Shown here: piece by piece, positions 19,436 through 37,035 of the stretch
How positions within the stretch are numbered: the stretch's first letter is position 1
Layout: each line of letters opens with the position of its first letter
Assembly: GCF_006539925.1 (NCBI RefSeq)
Contig: NZ_BJNY01000004.1
Location: 62,001-126,000 of the forward strand
Direction of reading: 5' to 3'
Source of the DNA: Glutamicibacter uratoxydans
Lineage (GTDB): Bacteria; Actinomycetota; Actinomycetes; Actinomycetales; Micrococcaceae
DNA: 64,000 nucleotides
Program-made: the position numbers and the translations under genes
The notes under the pieces: model-generated
Database searches by the model: none
What the model was told of the DNA's origin: nothing
What the model saw: only the letters and a program-made list of their open reading frames with translations

Positions 19436-21775
19436 CTAGTCGTCGGACTTGTCGCCCTTGCCCTTGCCATTTCCGTTATTCCCAGAATTTCCGGAATCGG
19501 ACTTGCTGCTCTTGCTCGAAGAGTCAGACTTCGACGAGGAATCCGACTTGGATGACTTCGAGTCCGAGCTGGATTCCTTCGAAGAATCAGACTTCGAGGA
19601 AGAATCCGACTTGGAATCAGATGACGAGCTGGAATCGGAGCTGGTTTCCTTCTTCACCACCGGTGCGCGGCGGGCCGCGCCGAGGCTCGAACGGTCGTAC
19701 TCGAGAACTGCCTCTTCCATAAAGTCGACCCACAGCGGGGCGGCATAGGTCGAGGAGTCAAGAGTACGTGGAGCACGCACGTTGTTGATCATCGAGCCCT
19801 GAAGGGTGTTTGCTTCTTCAGCAGCAGTCTTGTCAACGCGGCCAACCCATGCGGCAGTGGAGATGCCGGTGGTGTAGCCAACAAACCAGGTGGAGGTCGA
19901 GTAGTTGTTGGTACCGGTCTTACCGGCAATAGGACCGGCTACACGGCCCTTGGAGACGCGCTTGGTGGCGATCTTCTGCAGGGTGCCGTTCAAATCCGAG
20001 ATGTCCTGCGGATCCACCTGCTGGGAGCAAGTGGTTGGCTTGACCTTGTACTCGTTGCCCGACTTGTCGGTCACGCTGGTCAGTGCACGCGGCTCGCAGA
20101 ACTCGCCCTTGTTGGCGAAGGTTGCGAAGGCGGCGGCCTGAGCCAGCGGGGTGACCTTAGGGGTACCAATGATGAACGACGGGCTCTTTGGCGAAATCGG
20201 CTTTCCTTCGCCGCCGTCGTAGTCAACAAGTCCCAGCGCGTTGGCGTAGTCGGAAATGTTGCACAGATCCAGTCGGTTGGCTTCCTGGATGGTTGCCGAG
20301 TTGATCGACCAGAACAGGCCGGTGTCGACAGTCATGGTGCGGTAGAAGCCAGCCGATGCGTTGCGCGGCTGCCACGGCTGGCTTCCGCCGGTAATGGTTT
20401 GCCCGCCCGGAAGGCACGAGGCGCGCCAGGTCGAGGTTGGCGAGAAGTACGGACGCTTGGCGTTGATCTTGTCGTACATGTGGTGGCCTTCCTTCAGCCA
20501 CGCAAGAGTCGTGTACGGCTTCATCGTCGAGCCAGCCTGGAAGCCGCCGGCGCCGCCGTAGGCGCGCTCAACGGTGTAGTTCAGCATGGTCTGGCCAAGT
20601 CCCTTGTCCGGGACGTACTCGGTGTTCTGGGCCATGGCCAGAATGTTGCCGGTTCCCGGCTCGACCGAAACGATGGCCGAAGCAACGTCGGTGTTCGACT
20701 TCGCCTTGGGATCGATCGACTTGCGGGCGTCCTTGGCTGCCTGCTTGTTCAGCGAGCTGTTCAGCGTGGTCTTGATCTGCAGACCGCCGCGGTACAGCAG
20801 GTTTTCACGATCCTTCTTGGTCTTGCCGAAGGACTCGTCGCTGGTGATCAGCTTGGTCACGTAGTCGCAGAAGTAGGCGTTGTCGCCGGCGGCGATGCAG
20901 CCGGAAGGGGACTTGCTCTGCTTCAGTTCAAGACCCGACTTGACCGCCTTGTCGTATTCCTTCTTGGTGATCGCACCGGTGCGCAGCATATTGCCCAGCA
21001 CCTTGTTGCGGCGGTCCAGGGAACGCTCGGGGTTGTTGATCGGGTTGTAGACGTTTGGCAGCTGGACCATGCCTGCAAGCATGGCCGACTGCTGAAGGTT
21101 CAGGTCCTTGGCATCGACAGAGTAGAAGTACTGCGAGGCAGCCTGTACTCCATACTCGCGGCCCGAGAACAGCACCAGGTTGAGGTAACCTTCCAGGATT
21201 TCGTCCTTGGACATGGTCTTCTCGATCGACGTCGCGTACTTCAGCTCGCGGATCTTGGCAGCCAAGTCCTTCTGGCCGGAGACGGTGCTTTCCTCTGAGC
21301 CGGTGAGTTCCTGGTTGTTCACCAGCAGGTTGTTCACGTACTGCTGGGTCAGGGTCGAAGCACCCGAGCGCGAAGAACCGGTGAGGTTGCCTACCACTGC
21401 ACGGGCGATGCCCTTGGGATCGATGCCCTTGTGCTCGTAGAAACGCTCATCCTCAACGGAAACAATCGCCTTGCGCATGTAAGGAGAAATTTCGTCAAGT
21501 TTCACCGGTTCGCGATTTTGTTCATAGAACGTCGCGATGGTCTTGCCCTTGGCGTCCAAGATCTGCGAAGGCTCCGAAATCGGGAGCGCCTCGAATGAGC
21601 TCGGGAGTGCTGTGACAATGTTGTTACCGGTGGTCATGCCGGTTTTTGCGAGAGCCGCCACGGGCACCATCATGCCTGCGGTCAGCAAACCACACAGGGC
21701 GCTGATTCCGAAGAATGCGACGATTTTGCCCAGAGTGGTAGCTGTATCAAAAAAGGGTGACTTCTTAGCTGCCAT
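19436..21775 (-). CDS. Bifunctional penicillin-binding protein (transglycosylase/transpeptidase)
   Basis: 779 residues from ATG at 21775 (MAAKKSPFFD); the frame extends 60 bases upstream. A membrane anchor (about 17-45) precedes a GT51 glycosyltransferase domain with the catalytic region VEDERFYEHKG (about 107-117) and a transpeptidase domain with STMK (415-418), SIN (489-491) and KTG (618-620). It polymerises and cross-links peptidoglycan, class A. No PASTA domain is seen. The last 70 or so residues are a low-complexity tail rich in Ser, Asp and Lys ending in Gly/Asn. Divergent from DUF4177; the metallophosphoesterase follows. Confidence 0.94.
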   Translation of the reverse strand: MAAKKSPFFDTATTLGKIVAFFGISALCGLLTAGMMVPVAALAKTGMTTGNNIVTALPSSFEALPISEPSQILDAKGKTIATFYEQNREPVKLDEISPYMRKAIVSVEDERFYEHKGIDPKGIARAVVGNLTGSSRSGASTLTQQYVNNLLVNNQELTGSEESTVSGQKDLAAKIRELKYATSIEKTMSKDEILEGYLNLVLFSGREYGVQAASQYFYSVDAKDLNLQQSAMLAGMVQLPNVYNPINNPERSLDRRNKVLGNMLRTGAITKKEYDKAVKSGLELKQSKSPSGCIAAGDNAYFCDYVTKLITSDESFGKTKKDRENLLYRGGLQIKTTLNSSLNKQAAKDARKSIDPKAKSNTDVASAIVSVEPGTGNILAMAQNTEYVPDKGLGQTMLNYTVERAYGGAGGFQAGSTMKPYTTLAWLKEGHHMYDKINAKRPYFSPTSTWRASCLPGGQTITGGSQPWQPRNASAGFYRTMTVDTGLFWSINSATIQEANRLDLCNISDYANALGLVDYDGGEGKPISPKSPSFIIGTPKVTPLAQAAAFATFANKGEFCEPRALTSVTDKSGNEYKVKPTTCSQQVDPQDISDLNGTLQKIATKRVSKGRVAGPIAGKTGTNNYSTSTWFVGYTTGISTAAWVGRVDKTAAEEANTLQGSMINNVRAPRTLDSSTYAAPLWVDFMEEAVLEYDRSSLGAARRAPVVKKETSSDSSSSSDSKSDSSSKSDSSKESSSDSKSSKSDSSSKSDSSSKSSKSDSGNSGNNGNGKGKGDKSDD

Positions 21776-21812
21776 ACCCACTAGTTTACAAGGACGCGCT
21801 AACGTATCGAGT

Positions 21813-21968
21813 ATGACTAAATGGGAATACGCCACATTGCCGCTGCTGATCCACGCTACGAAGCAGATTTTGGATCAGTGGGGAGATGACGGATGGGAAC
21901 TGGTAACCGTTGTTCCAGGCCCGAACGGCAGCTCTCCGGTTGCATACTTAAAGCGTCCAAAGCAGTAA
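21813..21968 (+). CDS. DUF4177 small protein
   Basis: 51 residues, starting with ATG at 21813. MTKWEYATLPLLIHATKQIL and WGDDGWELVTVVPGPNG are the conserved DUF4177 pattern (a W-E-Y motif near the start and GWELV in the middle). The function is unknown. It is divergent from the PBP gene with 37 bases between starts, and 32 bases upstream of the RidA gene, which suggests an operon. The same DUF4177-RidA pair is recalled from mycobacteria. Confidence 0.85.
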   Translation: MTKWEYATLPLLIHATKQILDQWGDDGWELVTVVPGPNGSSPVAYLKRPKQ

Positions 21969-22000
21969 ATTCACATCACCGAAAAAAGGAGTAAAACCCC

Positions 22001-28730: not shown

Positions 28731-28883
28731 CGCTCCGCCGCCCTGCTTTGTGGTTTATGTCACCGGCGAGCGCGGGATTGAGCGGATTCTGCGCTGAACG
28801 GTCAAAAGTCAGCGCCGAACTGCAGAGGCGGCCCCGGCTTGGCAAAAGGTGAAAACTGCGCTGGTTAGTGGCAGGATCGATGC

Positions 28884-29678
28884 GTGGCACAGAACGCAAA
28901 AGTAGAGACAGAACTCGGGCTCAAGCGCCGGGCCCGCAAGATGAACCGGCTGCTGGCGGACGCCTACCCCTATGCGGTGCCGGAGCTGGATTTTGAGAAC
29001 CCCTTCGAGCTGCTGGTGGCTACCGTGCTCTCCGCGCAGACCACCGATGTGCGTGTCAACGCCATCACCCCTGCGCTGTTTGCGCGCTTCCCCGACGCGA
29101 AGGCGATGAGCCAGGGCGACCGGGCGGAGATCGAGGAGCTGATCCGGCCCACCGGCTTCTACCGCGCCAAGACCGACTCCCTGCTGGGGCTTTCAGCGGC
29201 CCTGGTCGAGCGCTTCGACGGGCAGGTGCCGGGACGACTGGAAGAACTGGTCAAGCTGCCGGGCGTGGGGCGCAAAACCGCCAACGTGGTGCTGGGCAAT
29301 GCCTTCGGGGTGCCGGGGATCACCGTGGACACGCACTTCGGCCGGCTGGCCAACCGCTTTGGCTGGACCAATGAAACCGACCCGGTGAAGGTTGAATTCG
29401 CCGTGGGCGAGCTCTTCGAGAAGCGCGACTGGACCATGCTCAGCCACCGCGTGGTGTTCCACGGGCGCCGGGTCTGCCACGCCCGCAAGCCTGCCTGTGG
29501 TGCCTGCGTGCTGGCCAAGCTGTGCCCCTCCTACGGGATCGGCGAGGAAATACCTGCCAAGGCGAAGGCGTTGCTTAAATACGAGCTGGCCCCGGGCCGC
29601 GAAGAGCTGCTGGCGAAAATGCTGGCAGGCGCCACCCGCCGCGAGCTGCGGGCCGAAGGATATGGACTTGATGCATGA
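28884..29678 (+). CDS. nth: Endonuclease III (DNA glycosylase/AP lyase)
   Basis: 264 residues with GTG at 28884. The HhH-GPD core has [18 protein letters not shown], with the catalytic Lys in GRKTA and the Asp in [10 protein letters not shown]. Four cysteines ([17 protein letters not shown]) form the [4Fe-4S] cluster near the end. It removes oxidised pyrimidines and cleaves abasic sites. The stop overlaps the next Nudix start by 4 bases (ATGA), so the two are coupled. Confidence 0.93.
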
Positions 29679-30352
29679 GCGCACGTGAAGAACTGGAACG
29701 GGTTATCTCCCGGCACAAGACCTATGCGGGGGCTCCGCGCAGGCTGCGCAATGACATCAACTTCGCCCCCGAGGACATTGCCGGGGCGCGCAAGGCGGCG
29801 GTGCTGATCCTCTTCGGAGCGGCCGGCGAACAGCGGTTGTCCGAGACGGCGGCCCCGGAGGACTTGGACCTGCTCTTCGTCCAGCGGGCCTCCACGCTGC
29901 GCAAGCATGCTGGGCAGGTCTCCTTCCCGGGCGGCGGGATCGACCCGGAGGACGGCAGCGCGGCCGATGCCGCCCTGCGCGAAGCCTGGGAGGAGACCGG
30001 CGTGCAGACCTCGGGCATCGAGGTCCTGGGCTCGCTGGCGGAAACCGAACTGCCGGTCACCAATTTCCTGGTCACCCCGGTGCTGGGCTGGTGGCACACC
30101 GAGTCCAAGGTCTACCCGGTGGATCCGGGGGAGAGCGCAGCGGTGTTCCGCGCGCCGGTGGCCCAGATGCTCGACCCGCGCCACCGGCTCACCGGCGTGG
30201 TGCAGCGCGACGGGCGGAAGTTCAAGTCCCCGGCCTTCGAGGTTGGCGGGCATATCATCTGGGGCTTCACCGCGATTGTCGTCGACCAGCTGTTCACCGA
30301 ACTGGGCTGGACCAGGCAGTGGGACGACTCCCGCGAAATCCGCATGAACTAG
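29675..30352 (+). CDS. Nudix CoA pyrophosphatase-type hydrolase
   Basis: 225 residues. It has the UPF0035 lead-in [20 protein letters not shown] and a full Nudix box, [26 protein letters not shown] in part (GX5EX7REUXEEXGU). These features identify the NUDT7/YeaB-type CoA pyrophosphatases. Coupled to nth by an ATGA overlap, and convergent with the polymerase gene (3-base gap). In mycobacteria an nth-Nudix pair is recalled in the same neighbourhood. Confidence 0.85.
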
Positions 30353-30355
30353 GTG

Positions 30356-32014
30356 TTACTTTGCATCGGCGTAGTTCGCGGTGACGGCGATGCTCACCGG
30401 GAAGTTCACGCTGTGCGCGCCGAACAGGGTGCGCCCGGCGAGCGCCGCGGCGGTGCGGATCATGCCTGCCAGCTCATCGGCCAATTCAACCGGGCATTCG
30501 AAGACGATCTCGTCGTGCACGAAGAACACCTGCCGGCACAGCTGGCTGTAGCCGGCCTGGTGGATCAGGTGGCGGGCATGTCCCATCCAGACCAGCGCCC
30601 ATTCGGCGGCCGTTGACTGCACCACGAAATTGCGGGTGAAGCGGCCTCGGGAGCGGGCGGCCGCGTCGGCGGCGCGCTGCGAGGCCTCGTCGCGCGTGGA
30701 GCGCTGGGCCCGCATCCAGCGCTCATCGGCCGGCGGGCAGCCGCGGCCCAAAAAGCTGTGCACCCCTTCGCCGCGCTCGCCGGCCCGGGCGGCCGAATCC
30801 ACATAGTCCATCGCCGTCCCGAAGTTCTTCTTCAGCGCCGCGCCCACCGCCGCCGAGCCCCCGGCAGAGCCGCCATAGATGACCGAGAGCATGCCGAGCT
30901 TGGCGTCGTGCCGGTCCCTGACCAGCTGTGCGTCAATGAGCCACTGATAGAGGTCGTCCTGGGCACCCGCCTTCTGCAGGTTGGCATCCTGGGAGATCGC
31001 GGCGAGGATGCGCGGCTCCAGCTGCCGCCCGTCGGCCACGACGAAGGTAGAGCCGGCCGGGGCGCGGACCACCTGGCGGATGGAATGGGGCAGCTGCAGG
31101 GCCCCGCCGCCGGAGGCCGCCCAGCGCCCGGAGGCGACGGTGCCCAGCACATAGTGCGGGTGGAAGCGCCCGTCGGCCACCCACTGGTCCAGCCAGGCAT
31201 CGCCGTGGGTGCTGGCCAGCCGGGAGAGCTTTTTGTATTCCAGCACCTTCGCGATCGCCGGGTGGTTGATGTGCTCCAGCTCCCAGGCGCGCACCGACTG
31301 CACCGCGAAACCGGCTTTGTGCAGGGCGCGCAGCAGCTCCTGCGGGGAATCCGGGTTCAGTCCAGGGGTGCCCAGCGCCGCTCCCACCTGGGCGGCCAGC
31401 GCCGCGAGCTTGGCAGGGCGGTGGTGTTCGGGTACCTGCGGGCCCAGCTGTTCGCGCAGCAGCGCGCGGTGGGCCCGCTCATCCCAAGACAGCCCGGTGT
31501 TTTCCATTTCGCTGGCGATCAGGGCGCCGACGGATTCGGCGTTGAGCAGCAGCCGCAGCTTGGCGCGCAGCACCGGATCTGCCGGCATCGCCGCCTGCTG
31601 TGCGGCGTACATGGCCAGCAGCTCCTCCAGCGTCTCGCCGCTGGCCGGGGCGGCGAACAGTGCGTCCTGGAATTCTGGCTGGCTGCTGGGGGAGGGGGCG
31701 CTTTCCAGATCGAAGTCCTCGATCTGCCCGGCGGCCGGGCTGCGGTGCAGGATGCGCTGGGCCAGCGAGAGCACGTACGCCTTGGCCAGGTAGACGTCGG
31801 CGGCGGCCAAGAGCTCGCACCAGCCGCGCGTGCGCAGCATGACCCAGCGCGGTGCATGCCGGCTCTCAAGCTGCTGCACGACCGCGCAGAAGCTCTCCTT
31901 GTCCACCGTGCGGGCCGGGGCCAGCACCGTCCCGGTATCCTCCGCGTACAGGCCGATGCGGGCAAAGCCTTCGGGGTCTTCGGCGATAAAGGCCAGGGCG
32001 CTGGTGGGGGACAT
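30356..32014 (-). CDS. Family A DNA polymerase without 5' nuclease domain
   Basis: 552 residues from ATG at 32014 (MSPTSALAFIAEDP); the frame extends 96 bases further. Polymerase motifs are present: motif A VVADGRQLEPRILAAIS, motif B RHDAKLGMLSVIYGG, and motif C FVHDEIVFE. There is no 5' flap nuclease domain, and the N-terminal third lacks an obvious DxE exonuclease site, although such proteins are often annotated as exonuclease/polymerase. A second family-A polymerase of this type is common in actinobacteria. Its 5' end was copied into the adjacent low-GC island. Confidence 0.85.
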   Translation of the reverse strand: MSPTSALAFIAEDPEGFARIGLYAEDTGTVLAPARTVDKESFCAVVQQLESRHAPRWVMLRTRGWCELLAAADVYLAKAYVLSLAQRILHRSPAAGQIEDFDLESAPSPSSQPEFQDALFAAPASGETLEELLAMYAAQQAAMPADPVLRAKLRLLLNAESVGALIASEMENTGLSWDERAHRALLREQLGPQVPEHHRPAKLAALAAQVGAALGTPGLNPDSPQELLRALHKAGFAVQSVRAWELEHINHPAIAKVLEYKKLSRLASTHGDAWLDQWVADGRFHPHYVLGTVASGRWAASGGGALQLPHSIRQVVRAPAGSTFVVADGRQLEPRILAAISQDANLQKAGAQDDLYQWLIDAQLVRDRHDAKLGMLSVIYGGSAGGSAAVGAALKKNFGTAMDYVDSAARAGERGEGVHSFLGRGCPPADERWMRAQRSTRDEASQRAADAAARSRGRFTRNFVVQSTAAEWALVWMGHARHLIHQAGYSQLCRQVFFVHDEIVFECPVELADELAGMIRTAAALAGRTLFGAHSVNFPVSIAVTANYADAK

Positions 32015-32030
32015 GCTTCCATTGTGCCCG

Positions 32031-32087
32031 CAGCGCGGCGATATCCCCAGTTCGCGGCCCCGGCCGACCGGCGCGCACCGGCAGGGC
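32031..32087 (+). repeat. Left copy of 57-bp direct repeat flanking the island
   Basis: Matches 34594-34650 at 54 of 57 bases by my alignment. It overlaps the polymerase upstream region and stops exactly where sequence similar to ssd begins. See the right copy. Confidence 0.8.
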
Positions 32088-32282
32088 CAGTGCGGCCCGC
32101 AGGAGGTCATTGAGGCGGGTCCGGGATCCCCAGAGCTGTGGGCGCTTACGCGCTGTGGTTTGCCGTCGGTATCATCGTGGCCAAGTACCCCCCCAGTCGA
32201 TCTACTCGCCCACGAACGTATGCATGGTGGGCTGCACAGCGTGATCTTCGAACCTGACCCGAATTCCTCACTGCTGTGGTAG
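32088..32282 (+). pseudogene. Decayed fragment of the pilus gene ssd
   Basis: Reading forward from 32088, the frame gives QCGPQEVIEAGPGSPELW, compared with QCGPQEAIEADPGTPVLW in the intact ssd gene, and later HGGLHSVIFEPDPNSSLLW, compared with LCGLRSVLIDLDPHSSGLW. Nucleotide identity is roughly 84% over the first 55 bases and 78% over the second stretch (32228-32283 versus 35220-35275), with internal deletions between. The frame stops at 32282. So this is a partial, degenerate copy of ssd, whose intact version starts at 34664. Confidence 0.75.
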
Positions 32283-32537
32283 TAGATCTGTGCATTCGAG
32301 CATATTCTTTATACGGCTTGGCTGATGTCGAAATCCCGCTGAGATCGAGTCGCTTCATTCATAGGCGGCGACCTTGCTGTGTGGGTCACTGCTGTATGAC
32401 TCGTCCCCGGATCATCTTGCTAATCCGCTCCGTATGGGGCGTGTTGAAGATACGACTAATCATTTTTGTTCTCATTCAACGAAGGGCTGTAGTTTAGGAA
32501 GAAACCCTCCTCTTGGGAGTAGCGAATGAGAATCTAG

Positions 32538-33560
32538 CTAGGGCCACTCTGGAGGATTGTGCTTGTGGATTTTGTTGTAGTCCAAGTTAGTAGAAAGAAA
32601 TGTCGGTTGTCTCCACTCTCGAACAAGCTCCTCATACATCCGACCTAGATTGGCCGCTCGATAAAATCCTCTGTACAAAGCTTCCATATATGCATTCAGG
32701 TTTGCTTTCGCTACGGTTTGATTGTGTTGGGGAAGATCCTTCTCCAACTGCGAAAGTTCCTTCTGAACATCGCTCAGCGGGGACCAGAAGGCATCACCGA
32801 CTGGCTCCCAGATCGCAAGCCTTAGCGCAGAACGAAGGAATGTCCTAGCCATGGTTAGAAAACTAGATGCTGGCAAAACCATGTCGGAACTCTGCTCATC
32901 ATGAGTCTCGATAAAACTTGGGAAGGCAATCTGCAATTCCCTAAATTGATAAGAAAATGTGTTGAATGCTGCATAGAACTTGCTTCTACGCGCTAGAAGT
33001 CGAAAGTATGAGAAACTCGGGTCATCTTTATCAAGTACGTTCCATGATGGTAAATAAAGGGTAACTGAGCCTTGGAGCTCGTAAGAATGCTTATAGGGTA
33101 GAAGTGATTTTGAGAGGTAGTCATTCAGGCACACGTAGTAGGTGTCTTCCGTCGAGAGATCGACGTAACAAAGTACTACAGGGACAGCAGCGCCCATTGT
33201 CTCAACTGTAAGCAATTCCGATGTCTCGAGATTGATCTTCACGACATTGATTTCGAGAGTATCGCCTAGATTCGGGTCCGGATCATACTTGGTCACATTT
33301 AGACGACTACGCACGGTAATTTGCGTTTGTTCAATGTTCTCAGAAGACTTCACTTGGATATAGAAGTGCTCGCCCAGAGTATTTGCGCTACGGGGGTCCC
33401 GCAAATCAGATTCGAAAACTTCAACATGTAAGTCAAGTCCATAGTCCGGGGTAATCACCCGAGTAACCCAGTGTTCTGGCAAGCTTCGCATCACGATGTC
33501 GATACCTTTATCGCCATTGATGTGGTTAATATGCCGCTGCTTTGTTCGAGGAATATGCAT
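32538..33560 (-). CDS. DUF4365 protein with nuclease-like PD-(D/E)XK pattern
   Basis: 340 residues. The N-terminal 120 residues have the DUF4365 pattern: RTKQRHINHINGDKGIDIV, then TPDYGLDLHVEVFE and EHFYIQVKSSE. The Asp-x(n)-Glu/Gln-x-Lys arrangement resembles the PD-(D/E)XK nuclease core, as in restriction-type endonucleases; the Q-x-K form is typical of this family. The remaining residues are predicted helical and unfamiliar. DUF4365 genes often sit in mobile defence islands, but the activity of this one is unproven. It is reverse-strand with a lower GC content than the neighbours, and lies downstream of a broken gene on the same strand. Confidence 0.8.
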   Translation of the reverse strand: MHIPRTKQRHINHINGDKGIDIVMRSLPEHWVTRVITPDYGLDLHVEVFESDLRDPRSANTLGEHFYIQVKSSENIEQTQITVRSRLNVTKYDPDPNLGDTLEINVVKINLETSELLTVETMGAAVPVVLCYVDLSTEDTYYVCLNDYLSKSLLPYKHSYELQGSVTLYLPSWNVLDKDDPSFSYFRLLARRSKFYAAFNTFSYQFRELQIAFPSFIETHDEQSSDMVLPASSFLTMARTFLRSALRLAIWEPVGDAFWSPLSDVQKELSQLEKDLPQHNQTVAKANLNAYMEALYRGFYRAANLGRMYEELVREWRQPTFLSTNLDYNKIHKHNPPEWP

Positions 33561-33766
33561 TGGACTAGGTTCTCACACTTTCAATAAAATGGACTTTCCC
33601 GTCAGAAGTTTCGCAAAATTTTCGTCAGTCAATGCGTGAGGATGTGATGGAAGGGCCCGGGACGGGTAAGTAATGCAACTTCAAACGCACGGAATGCCAA
33701 CGGATGCGCTATTGTGGATGACTCAGAGGCTGACAAATTAATGTATTTTGGCGGCGTGACTGCTGC

Positions 33767-34435
33767 TTACGAGTCAGCCAGTTGAATCTGTGTCAATCTG
33801 AAGTGATTCTCGCTGGTGCTCGGTTTGTCAGCTTGCTTTGCTCTAAAGTTCACCAACAGGGTGATTCTGTCTTGCTCCATCTTGCCGTTTGCCTGCTGGT
33901 TATTCTCTCGTGGCTATCGACGTTGAGCTCGTGCGCCTGTAGATCGTATAAGTCGGAATTCTGTGCAGATTCGTCAAGTTTCCGAAATATATCTAAAGTT
34001 ACGGCGATAAGTCTCTCTAGCAGAAGTGTGGCCTTGCCGCTCCTGAGAATGATCCAATTTGCGTACGCATCGCGTTTAGGGTCTTGACTTTGCCCGATAG
34101 CGAACTCATTTCGGACGCTAATCTCTCATTTAACGATCTGCGAATGAATCGTTTGGTACGCGTCGAGGGTGGTGTTTAAGAGCGCCGCTTTCGTAGCTTT
34201 GTTGCCGAGTTATCTACGGTTGTGGCGCTAGCATCAATTGACTCGCGACTTGCCTCCAACGATTGCTTTGAGGCCCTTTTTGTTGAGCTCGCATTATCGG
34301 ATTGTCCGATAATCACCGCCGTGTCCTGTGGGCCCCGGCAATGGTCCGCCCGGAGCTAGCTAGGACATCTGTCATAGAGGTTAAATCCGAAGCCAGAGAT
34401 TCCATTTTCCAATCTTGGTATGACAAAACCAGCAT
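33767..34435 (-). pseudogene. Broken gene of unknown function, upstream of the DUF4365 gene
   Basis: No single frame is longer than about 100 codons, but joined frames give protein-like sequence for about 220 codons. It starts with ATG at 34435 after AAGG (MLVLSYQDWKMESLASDL), shifts frame near 34325 (GPQDTAVIIGQSDNA), shifts again near 34200 (ATKAALLNTTLDAYQ), meets a TGA at 34126-34128 (QIVK*EISVRNEFAIG), and continues as DAYANWIILRSGKATLLLER and LDIFRKLDESAQNSDLYD. The tail is in a third frame from ATG at 33880 (MEQDRITLLVNF) to TAA at 33767. The composition is helical and hydrophilic. I do not recognise the family. It may once have been an operon partner of the DUF4365 gene. Confidence 0.6.
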
Positions 34436-34578
34436 TGGACCTTATGAGATGTTATATCCGCTCAGTAATTGGCATCTTAAAGTAATTTTTAAAGTAATTT
34501 TTGGAGGCTCCTGGTGGCTACTGAACAGCAACACTTATTAATGATCGAAGTCGTCGATATGCTCGGAGGCAGAGCACG

Positions 34579-34601
34579 GTGCGCAGCATGACCCAGCGCG
34601 G
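34579..34601 (+). pseudogene. Fragment of the polymerase gene at the right island end
   Basis: These 23 bases are identical to 31830-31852 inside the polymerase gene (ending CCCAGCGCGG), then continue as the 57-bp repeat. In the intact left copy, 181 bp separate these two blocks, so the right copy looks like a deletion joined at the 8-base identity CAGCGCGG. Confidence 0.7.
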
Positions 34602-34650
34602 CGATATCCCCAGTTCGCGGCCCCGGCCGCCGGGCACGCACCGGCAGGGC
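34594..34650 (+). repeat. Right copy of 57-bp direct repeat flanking the island
   Basis: Matches 32031-32087 with three substitutions, in the same orientation. It lies just upstream of the intact ssd gene, in the same order as in the left copy, so the segment polymerase-intergenic-ssd has been duplicated in tandem and then altered. Confidence 0.8.
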
Positions 34651-34663
34651 GCATGCTCGATGC

Positions 34664-35794
34664 ATGAAATGGCAATCGATCAAAGCTCGAACCGCTCCCG
34701 CGGCGGCCGATTCGCGCTATGTCCCGCGGGGGCTTGACGACGCGCTGTCGCCGCGGCCAGCCCCGGCAGCCTCCCCGCCGGTGCGGGCGTCCGCGGATCC
34801 GCAGGGCCCCAGCTGCCTGCTGGTTAGCGCCGACAGCCAGCTGGCGGCCCGGTGCGCCGGCATCGCGCTGGGCGCGGCGGTGCGGCTGGCCCAGTGCGGC
34901 CCGCAGGAAGCCATCGAGGCGGACCCGGGAACCCCGGTGCTGTGGGGCGCCGACGCGGCGGCGGCTGCCGTGGATTCAGCGCGGCGCGCCGACGTACTGA
35001 TCGGAACCGAGGAACAGGCAGCGGCCCTGTGGTCGGCGGCCAGCGCGCTGCCCTTGGCCCGGGTGGCAATCCTGCCCGGAGCCCAGGGCTGGCTGGGCGA
35101 ATACCTAGGGCTGCAGGGCATGCGAGCGGGGCACGGGCATACCCTGGCGGTGGGCTCCGCGGCTGGCGGCATCGGGGCCAGCACCCTGTGCTTCCTGCTG
35201 GCGCACGCCGGAACACTGTGCGGGCTGCGCAGCGTGCTGATCGACCTTGACCCGCATTCCTCCGGGCTGTGGCAGCGGATCTGCGCCGCTCCTCCGGCAG
35301 GGGCAGGCTGGGAGGCGCTGCGCGGCTCGGGCGGGTCGCTGGCGGCGCACCAGCTGCGCGCGGCCCTGCCCCAGGTTTGCGGCACCAGCGTGGTGACCTG
35401 GGAGCAGTCCTCGGCCGGCGGGCAGCTGGAACAGCAGCTGATCGCGCGGCTGCTGTCCGCCGCCCGGCAGGGCTTTGACTTTTTGGTGCTGGACACCGGG
35501 CGGGCCGGGCATCCGCAGGCCCAGGCCATCGACCACTTCGTCGACCGCGGCATCACCCTGTGCCAGCAGCCGGGCACCGCGGCGGGGGACTACGTGCTGT
35601 GCGGACAGGAACGCAGGCCGCGCACGGCGGGCGAGCCAGGATGCCTCGGCAGCTTCAGCTACAGCACCCGGATTTCCAGGGCGGCGGCCCGCGGGCAGCT
35701 GGTCGACTGCTTCAAGTCCAGATCCCTGCGCCAGCAGCTGGCCGATCTGCAGCTGATCCCGCAGCCCGCCCAAGATGCACGGAGCGCGGCATGA
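34664..35794 (+). CDS. ssd: Ssd/CpaE-like protein of the Tad pilus locus
   Basis: 376 residues, no strong ribosome site, start tentative. A CpaE/MinD-type ATPase fold is suggested by VGSAAGGIGASTLCFLLAH, a deviant Walker A with Ala where Lys is expected, followed by VLIDLDPHSSG. Ssd (septum site-determining) proteins precede the tad genes in actinobacteria, where they are proposed to act in localisation of the pilus or of division; in mycobacteria the homologue is Rv3660c. The stop overlaps the TadA start by 4 bases (ATGA), giving a coupled operon. Confidence 0.8.
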   Translation: MKWQSIKARTAPAAADSRYVPRGLDDALSPRPAPAASPPVRASADPQGPSCLLVSADSQLAARCAGIALGAAVRLAQCGPQEAIEADPGTPVLWGADAAAAAVDSARRADVLIGTEEQAAALWSAASALPLARVAILPGAQGWLGEYLGLQGMRAGHGHTLAVGSAAGGIGASTLCFLLAHAGTLCGLRSVLIDLDPHSSGLWQRICAAPPAGAGWEALRGSGGSLAAHQLRAALPQVCGTSVVTWEQSSAGGQLEQQLIARLLSAARQGFDFLVLDTGRAGHPQAQAIDHFVDRGITLCQQPGTAAGDYVLCGQERRPRTAGEPGCLGSFSYSTRISRAAARGQLVDCFKSRSLRQQLADLQLIPQPAQDARSAA

Positions 35795-37035
35795 GCCCGG
35801 GACGCCACCTGCCCGCCGCCCGGGTGCTGGCCGGTAGGGCCATCGATGAGAAGATCCTGCACTCGGTGCGCGAACGGGCGCTGGCCAGCGGCGGCGAGCT
35901 CGACGCTGTGGCGCTGGCCGCGGCGGTGCATGATTCAGGGGCGGCACTGGGATCCGGCGGGGCCACCGCCTCCCTGCAGGCGCTGCAGAACGAGGTCTCC
36001 GGCCTGTCGGTGCTTGAACCCTTCGCCCAGCAGGAGGGAGTCACCGATGTGCTGGTGGACGGCCGCGGCCAGGTGTGGACCGACTCGCCGCGCGGCCTGC
36101 AGCCCACCGGATTCAGCTTCGACAGCGCCGAGCAGGTGCGCGCCCTGGCGGTGCACCTGGCAACGCTGGCAGGCCGGCGGCTGGATACCGCCAGCCCGTT
36201 CATGGACATGAGCCTGAACAACTATCGAGTGCACGCGGTGATCCCGCCGATCGCCACCGAAGGGCCGCTGATTTCCATCCGCGTCAAGAACGCCCGCCAA
36301 CTGGAACTGTCCGAGGTGCTTCAACACGCCGCCGGCTTCTGGGACCCGCTGCTGGGCGAGGTGCTGCGGCGCAGGCTGAACTTCCTTATCACCGGGGGCA
36401 CCGGCAGCGGCAAGACCACCCTGCTGCAGGCAATGCTGGGCCAGGTCCGGCCGGACCAGCGGCTGCTGGTCATCGAAGATTCCAAGGAGCTGCAGATCCG
36501 CCACCCGCATGTGATCGGGCTGCAGGCACGAAACGCCAATACCGAATCCGCCGGATCGGTGCAGCTGAGCGACCTGGTGATCCAGGCCCTGCGGATGAGG
36601 CCGGACCGGCTGGTTGTCGGCGAGTGCCGTGGGGCAGAAATCAGGGACTTTTTGGCGGCCATGAACACCGGCCACCAGGGCGCCTGCGGTACGCTGCACG
36701 CCAATCACCCGCAGGCGGTCCCTGCGCGCCTCGCGGCCCTGGGTGCCTTGGCCGGCTGGAGCCTGCAGGCAACCTCGCTGCAGGCAGCCAGCGCCCTGGA
36801 CCTGGTCATCCACATGGAGCGCGACGGGAGGGGAGGACGCGCTCCGGCCGTGCTGGGCCTGCTGGAAACCGATGACGAGGGGCGACTGTCGGTCCGTACG
36901 CTGTTCGACCTGCACTGCCAGGATGCTGTCCCGGCTCCGGCGCTGGACGCCATCGAGGACAAGCTTGGCACACCGGTTGCCGCCGCGGTGCGCGACTGGC
37001 GGTGTCCGGCGGGCCGGAAGGGCACGCCATGCTGA
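35791..37035 (+). CDS. tadA: TadA/CpaF-type pilus assembly ATPase
   Basis: 414 residues from ATG at 35791 (MSPGRHLPAARV), with GGAG upstream and ATGA overlap with ssd. Secretion-ATPase motifs: Walker A GGTGSGKTTLLQ, the Asp box VIEDSKELQ, Walker B-like RPDRLVVGECRG and His-box GACGTLHANHP. It is a hexameric ATPase driving Flp pilus assembly. The next gene starts before its stop (TadB at 37029, 7-base overlap). The cluster order ssd-tadA-tadB-tadC-flp-tadE-tadG is that recalled for the mycobacterial locus. Confidence 0.92.
   Translation: MSPGRHLPAARVLAGRAIDEKILHSVRERALASGGELDAVALAAAVHDSGAALGSGGATASLQALQNEVSGLSVLEPFAQQEGVTDVLVDGRGQVWTDSPRGLQPTGFSFDSAEQVRALAVHLATLAGRRLDTASPFMDMSLNNYRVHAVIPPIATEGPLISIRVKNARQLELSEVLQHAAGFWDPLLGEVLRRRLNFLITGGTGSGKTTLLQAMLGQVRPDQRLLVIEDSKELQIRHPHVIGLQARNANTESAGSVQLSDLVIQALRMRPDRLVVGECRGAEIRDFLAAMNTGHQGACGTLHANHPQAVPARLAALGALAGWSLQATSLQAASALDLVIHMERDGRGGRAPAVLGLLETDDEGRLSVRTLFDLHCQDAVPAPALDAIEDKLGTPVAAAVRDWRCPAGRKGTPC

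Follow-up and report, generated by a model that had tools for sequence, protein, structure and literature searches.

Positions 32031–34650 of the sequence analysed here hold an AT-rich island between two divergently oriented genes, pol and ssd, of Glutamicibacter uratoxydans. The sequence, referred to below as the window, is a 64,000-nucleotide stretch of contig NZ_BJNY01000004.1 (assembly GCF_006539925.1, positions 62,001–126,000 of the forward strand). The left neighbour, pol (30356–32014, minus strand; open frame of 552 residues), encodes a PolA-like 'bifunctional 3'-5' exonuclease/DNA polymerase' (NCBIfam NF011538, 587.8 bits with a cut-off of 389; Pfam DNA_pol_A) and the right neighbour, ssd (34664–35794, plus strand; open frame of 376 residues), encodes an Ssd/CpaE-like ATPase (NCBIfam TIGR03815, 133.1 bits, under the cut-off of 154.45). 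The parts follow each other in the order pol, first repeat (J1), decayed piece of ssd, foreign DNA, short putative piece of pol, second repeat (J2) and ssd. The sole sizeable gene wholly within the island encodes a 340-residue DUF4365 protein. We consider the island to be, probably, a lineage-specific insertion with long target duplication that carries this solitary gene for a predicted nuclease as cargo.

J1 (32031–32087) and J2 (34594–34650), which carry no strand, are direct repeats identical at 54 of 57 bases, with mismatches at repeat positions 37, 39 and 43, in agreement with the initial annotation of this DNA, which had described two 57 bp repeats in the same direction with three differences. 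Their alignment score was reached by none of 200 dinucleotide shuffles. The repeated region is the stretch between pol and ssd. J1, together with the adjoining ATTGTGC (32021–32027), retains both sequence elements that congeners conserve at this place, ATTGTGC and ATWTCCCCA, which bears out the earlier proposal that the repeats derive from the polymerase–ssd junction; J2 runs on into the start region of ssd and is without ATTGTGC. A point missed in that annotation is that the similarity between the copies extends past 57 bp (see below).

The locus was compared with those of 17 other genomes of the genus, in which ssd homologues were recovered by DNA search in 15 cases and by protein search in all 17. 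In each of them the pol and ssd homologues are adjacent, divergent and insert-free, with an extrapolated gap of 75–135 bp (approximate in L043 and L054, where the ssd alignment begins late); joining the window flanks without the island gives a gap of 86 bp. The comparison with relatives suggested in the initial annotation has thus yielded a single junction and an empty site in 17 of 17 congeners and a double junction in none, and the island is present in this genome alone among the 18. The closest congener Ssd protein is 55% identical, there being no nearer relative in the sample. ATTGTGC followed by ATWTCCCCA (ATATCCCCA in 16) lies between pol and ssd in all 17, their starts being 21 bases apart in all but one, where the distance is 20. 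The spacing in the window, counted on the sequence, is 20; the pair is located at 32021–32049, with the one element that J2 retains at 34604–34612, and reads TGGGGATAT-N13-GCACAAT on the minus strand upstream of pol. The pair is perhaps the pol promoter or an operator common to the polymerase and the tad locus (ssd is followed by a TadA-family ATPase gene; TIGR03819, 402.4 bits with a cut-off of 373.15).

Site-specific integration, with J serving as attachment site for an integrative element that has since lost its recombinase, would likewise leave a foreign segment framed by direct repeats and an empty site in relatives. We regard this as very improbable, given that J is the conserved intergenic region of two genes and that the similarity extends beyond J, into ssd in one direction and into pol in the other, which an attachment site does not explain. 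Moreover, neither a transposase nor an integrase gene was found: the DUF4365 gene is the only open reading frame (ORF) of more than 101 residues wholly between J1 and J2, so that no other ORF of integrase size lies inside the island, and any such gene once present may later have been lost.

By composition the island is foreign DNA. The G+C fraction is 0.459 in the DUF4365 gene, 0.473 in the ORF-less part and 0.484 in 32294–32537, compared with 0.703 in pol, 0.736 in ssd and 0.637 in the whole window, and the third-codon-position value is 0.487 in the island gene compared with 0.886 in pol and 0.857 in ssd. Segment by segment, this confirms the approximately 2.5 kb of AT-richer DNA reported earlier between the repeats (46–48% against 70–74% in the adjoining genes).

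Immediately to the right of J1, 32088–32293 (plus strand) is largely a decayed piece of ssd. Two blocks, 32087–32181 and 32202–32293, match 34891–34985 and 35195–35286 of the intact gene, respectively, and the score of neither was reached by any of 200 shuffles. The ungapped blocks deviate from the intact gene at 36 of 150 bases (114/150 identical, a difference of 24%), and the piece contains small insertions and deletions as well as two stops in the second block. On the opposite side, a short pol relic (34543–34601, minus strand), supported by two matches inside pol, pairs 34543–34582 with 31708–31748 (33/41) and 34579–34601 with 31830–31852 (23/23). Searching the organism's own genome with the island returned only the island itself and a 75 bp ssd piece that matches the relic. 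Since an ssd relic lies on the left and a pol relic on the right, the duplication was longer than 57 bp; measured from pol 31708 to ssd 35286 with the island excluded, it comes to about 1.0 kb or more, and J1 and J2 are its preserved core. The offsets imply that ∼241 bp have gone missing on the J1 side of the ssd relic and 186 bp on the J2 side of the pol relic; in each case the start of the redundant copy is what was removed. The right-hand loss is bounded by two copies of CAGCGCGG, the left-hand one by short sequences that are similar but non-identical.

Against the organism's own ssd the two relic blocks score 40 and 38, and none of 15 congener loci gives more than 14 and 29. We read the relic as probably copied within this lineage or a closely related sister lineage; own ssd scores 11–15 and 23–56 against the same loci. 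These values bear on the possibility that the finished structure formed in another strain or species and entered by ordinary homologous replacement of the locus. Such a history would suit an island found in only one of 18 genomes of the genus and a relic that differs by 24% from own ssd, yet none of the 15 congener loci tested comes as close to the relic as own ssd does and no donor is present among the genomes compared, which makes it decidedly improbable.

The DUF4365 gene (32538–33560, minus strand) matches Pfam PF14280 with 47.8 bits (E value 1.9e-12; curated cut-off 24.3 bits). Its frame is open and its differences to homologues are of the coding type. The protein is predicted to comprise an N-terminal PD-(D/E)XK-type nuclease domain, the best fold match of which is the SPARDA nuclease subunit, and a C-terminal part modelled as helices; five of the six SPARDA matches among those listed for the whole-protein model cover only model residues 7–198, and the sixth extends to residue 254. 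It has a Q-x-K pair (Gln69/Lys71). Most likely the protein cuts DNA, with a putative role as a single-gene defence nuclease. No match to it was found in NCBIfam at an E value of 0.001. A sequence search of the PDB gave four weak matches, the best (E value 0.021) to IWS1 and a related factor, and PADLOC gave one weak match (E value 0.036); none of these was accepted.

At an E value of 0.001, relatives of the island protein are absent from the 17 congeners, and a single one occurs in 294 other genomes of the family sample (those 17 included). With the Pfam profile, one congener has a different, shorter DUF4365 protein elsewhere (G010:C25:59520–59963; open frame of 188 residues). The neighbours of DUF4365 homologues include type I restriction-type genes (L025), a DUF4268 protein (L024) and an IS481-type transposase, the last in L028 (385–2454; G164, another genus of the family), where the homologue comes directly after the transposase gene. 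Nine ORFs of L023, L024, L025 and L028, part of the neighbours, were scanned with Pfam and have no partner in common. Repeats of at least 28 nt were sought around the homologues in L023–L026 and the duplication pattern was not seen: L023 has a GC-rich low-complexity 31 nt family with two copies 6 kb off on either side (74–84%), L024 has two short pairs distant from the gene, L025 has none and L026 has a repeated protein gene. The pattern around DUF4365 genes is thus not shown to be general.

The arrangement suggests the following course of events. A foreign AT-rich segment with the solitary DUF4365 nuclease gene would have entered between divergent pol and ssd, accompanied by a duplicate of about 1.0 kb or more of the locus that reaches from inside pol over the junction into ssd. 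The likeliest route would be integration by a single (Campbell-type) crossover, the incoming molecule being circular or ligated and carrying foreign DNA next to pol–ssd homology; another repair route may have given the same product. Both neighbours would have stayed unbroken, since the intervening region was duplicated in full. The internal halves (the left ssd copy and the right pol copy), being redundant, would then have decayed through deletions and substitutions, and the intergenic core would have changed very little, since J1 would now be the promoter region of pol and J2 that of ssd. The claim of the initial annotation that the island arrived together with a duplication of the junction fares well as regards the duplication, which the relics and the empty sites support and lengthen; a single event bringing both is the most economical interpretation, though short of proof.

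Several observations weigh against this interpretation. The pol relic is short and the score of its second match was reached by one of 200 shuffles, so that its case leans partly on order and position. No convincing further host relic was recognized in 32294–34542: the best scores of 32294–32537 against 35287–37035, of 33561–34540 against 28800–31707 and of 34100–34540 against 30356–31707 were reached by 96, 37 and 5 of 200 shuffles, respectively, and tblastx of the ORF-less part against the window and the loci gave no match below an E value of 0.1 except itself. The duplicated length is therefore a lower bound, with the far ends unseen. J1 and J2 differ by 5% and the adjoining relic by 24%, a disparity that requires the extra assumption of selection or conversion. 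The relic differences at codon positions 1, 2 and 3 (9/51, 11/50 and 16/49; position 3 versus the rest, Fisher p = 0.10) are weak evidence for unselected decay. When own ssd is compared with the 15 congener loci over 35195–35286, position 2 is the least and position 3 the most changed in 15 of 15, and the relic shows the same order in this block, less marked (8, 7 and 12). Changes from G/C to A/T (20 of 108 G/C sites) are in only modest excess over the reverse (5 of 42 A/T sites). The case for decay thus rests on the stops, the insertions and deletions and the lost start, and the codon pattern contributes little. Over the second block, several congeners (scores of up to 56) are nearer to own ssd than the relic is (38), which decay would explain and a foreign source could explain too. 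No close copy of the gene was found on a plasmid, phage or viral contig. Finally, the structure model of the cargo is middling, with a mean predicted local distance difference test score (pLDDT) of 71.4 (45.6–63.2 for the other four models), and the Foldseek template-modelling scores amount to only about 0.3 of the query.

The same lack of a clear relic beyond the matched parts speaks against a two-step origin, in which an ordinary tandem pol–ssd duplication came first and foreign DNA later entered between the copies, replacing the remaining duplicated stretch. This would yield the identical final layout, and the internal deletions in both relics are as expected for an old duplication. It requires two events at one spot, however, and its intermediate is absent from all congeners compared; we consider it unlikely. 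We retain insertion with long target duplication as the preferred explanation.

Insertions of this kind are reportedly known for restriction-modification genes of Helicobacter pylori, as described by Nobusato and colleagues in 2000. The Helicobacter insertions differ from the present one in that the island, in another organism, has a solitary DUF4365 nuclease with no methyltransferase ORF (no second sizeable ORF accompanies the predicted nuclease) and in that the duplication looks old, with everything but the 57 bp core decayed. Insertion with long target duplication, as described, leaves a foreign gene flanked by long repeats, in the same orientation, of a target that an insert-free relative has only once, and it is often associated with restriction-modification genes (PMC1643837; PMC3031569). 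The present island resembles this description in an insert flanked by target repeats (54/57, continued inward by relics), in a target that is single and free of the insert in 17 of 17 congeners and in a nuclease-type cargo, predicted in our case. Tandem duplications (merodiploids) are also described as arising during natural transformation in Streptococcus pneumoniae (PMC3784515), and foreign DNA can be trapped through one-sided homology (Prudhomme 2002 and de Vries and Wackernagel 2002, both as cited in PMC3784515). The common feature would be a tandem chromosomal duplication from recombination with incoming, partly homologous DNA; here about 1 kb is duplicated and foreign DNA lies between the copies.

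In SPARDA, a DUF4365–APAZ nuclease subunit acts with a short Argonaute (PMC10810196). The island protein shares with it the predicted DUF4365-kind nuclease domain and the Q-x-K pair, which has a counterpart in the municipale protein. It differs in that its C-terminal part is modelled helical, the island is without an Argonaute gene (it has no second sizeable gene that could encode a short Argonaute partner) and the genome has no match to the Piwi family at an E value of 0.001, a search that recovered its control in M. jannaschii. Among open-licence PMC articles, a full-text search judged by titles and abstract openings found no paper about a solitary DUF4365 defence protein.

The acquisition of the island looks real but fairly ordinary, and the finding adds a new instance to a known class of event, the cargo being a plausible candidate for a defence nuclease. 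It is a legible record of the way in which a small defence-type gene may come into a chromosome without a visible integrase or transposase, and it draws attention to solitary DUF4365 nucleases, a sparsely distributed group with a testable function. More speculatively, and some way short of what we would call probable, solitary SPARDA-like DUF4365 nucleases with a helical C-terminal part might constitute an actinobacterial, Argonaute-independent single-gene defence that can be disseminated in minimal islands through insertion with long target duplication; in this instance the insertion would also have divided one divergent promoter region, formerly shared, into two that evolve separately.

The remainder of the island, 33561–34542 (no strand), is AT-rich DNA without a recognized gene or RNA family; its longest ORF has 101 residues, with Pfam matches at chance level only. 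Over 31900–34800, RNA-family searches gave no match up to an E value of 1, and a promoter and terminator scan was barely above shuffles (three versus a mean of 2.6 and four versus 2.9, respectively). The window contains no transfer RNA gene. A plasmid DNA search with 32143–34593 and a phage protein search gave no match, a plasmid protein search gave four records, each of less than 60% identity, and three pattern matches on viral contigs proved not to be relatives.

Outside the island, pol also matches the PADLOC model RTasPolA (DRT) with an E value of 2e-10, which probably reflects general PolA-family resemblance. The G+C content falls below 58% in two other 1 kb blocks of the window, 1001–2000 and 21001–22000; a long ORF around 21–22 kb reads as a putative penicillin-binding-protein-like gene, and there is no obvious island there. 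Within the ORF-less part of the island, a perfect 9 bp inverted repeat, ATTATCGGA-TTG-TCCGATAAT, is located at 34293–34313 with no T run after it, and TTAAAGTAATTT occurs twice head-to-tail at 34477–34500.
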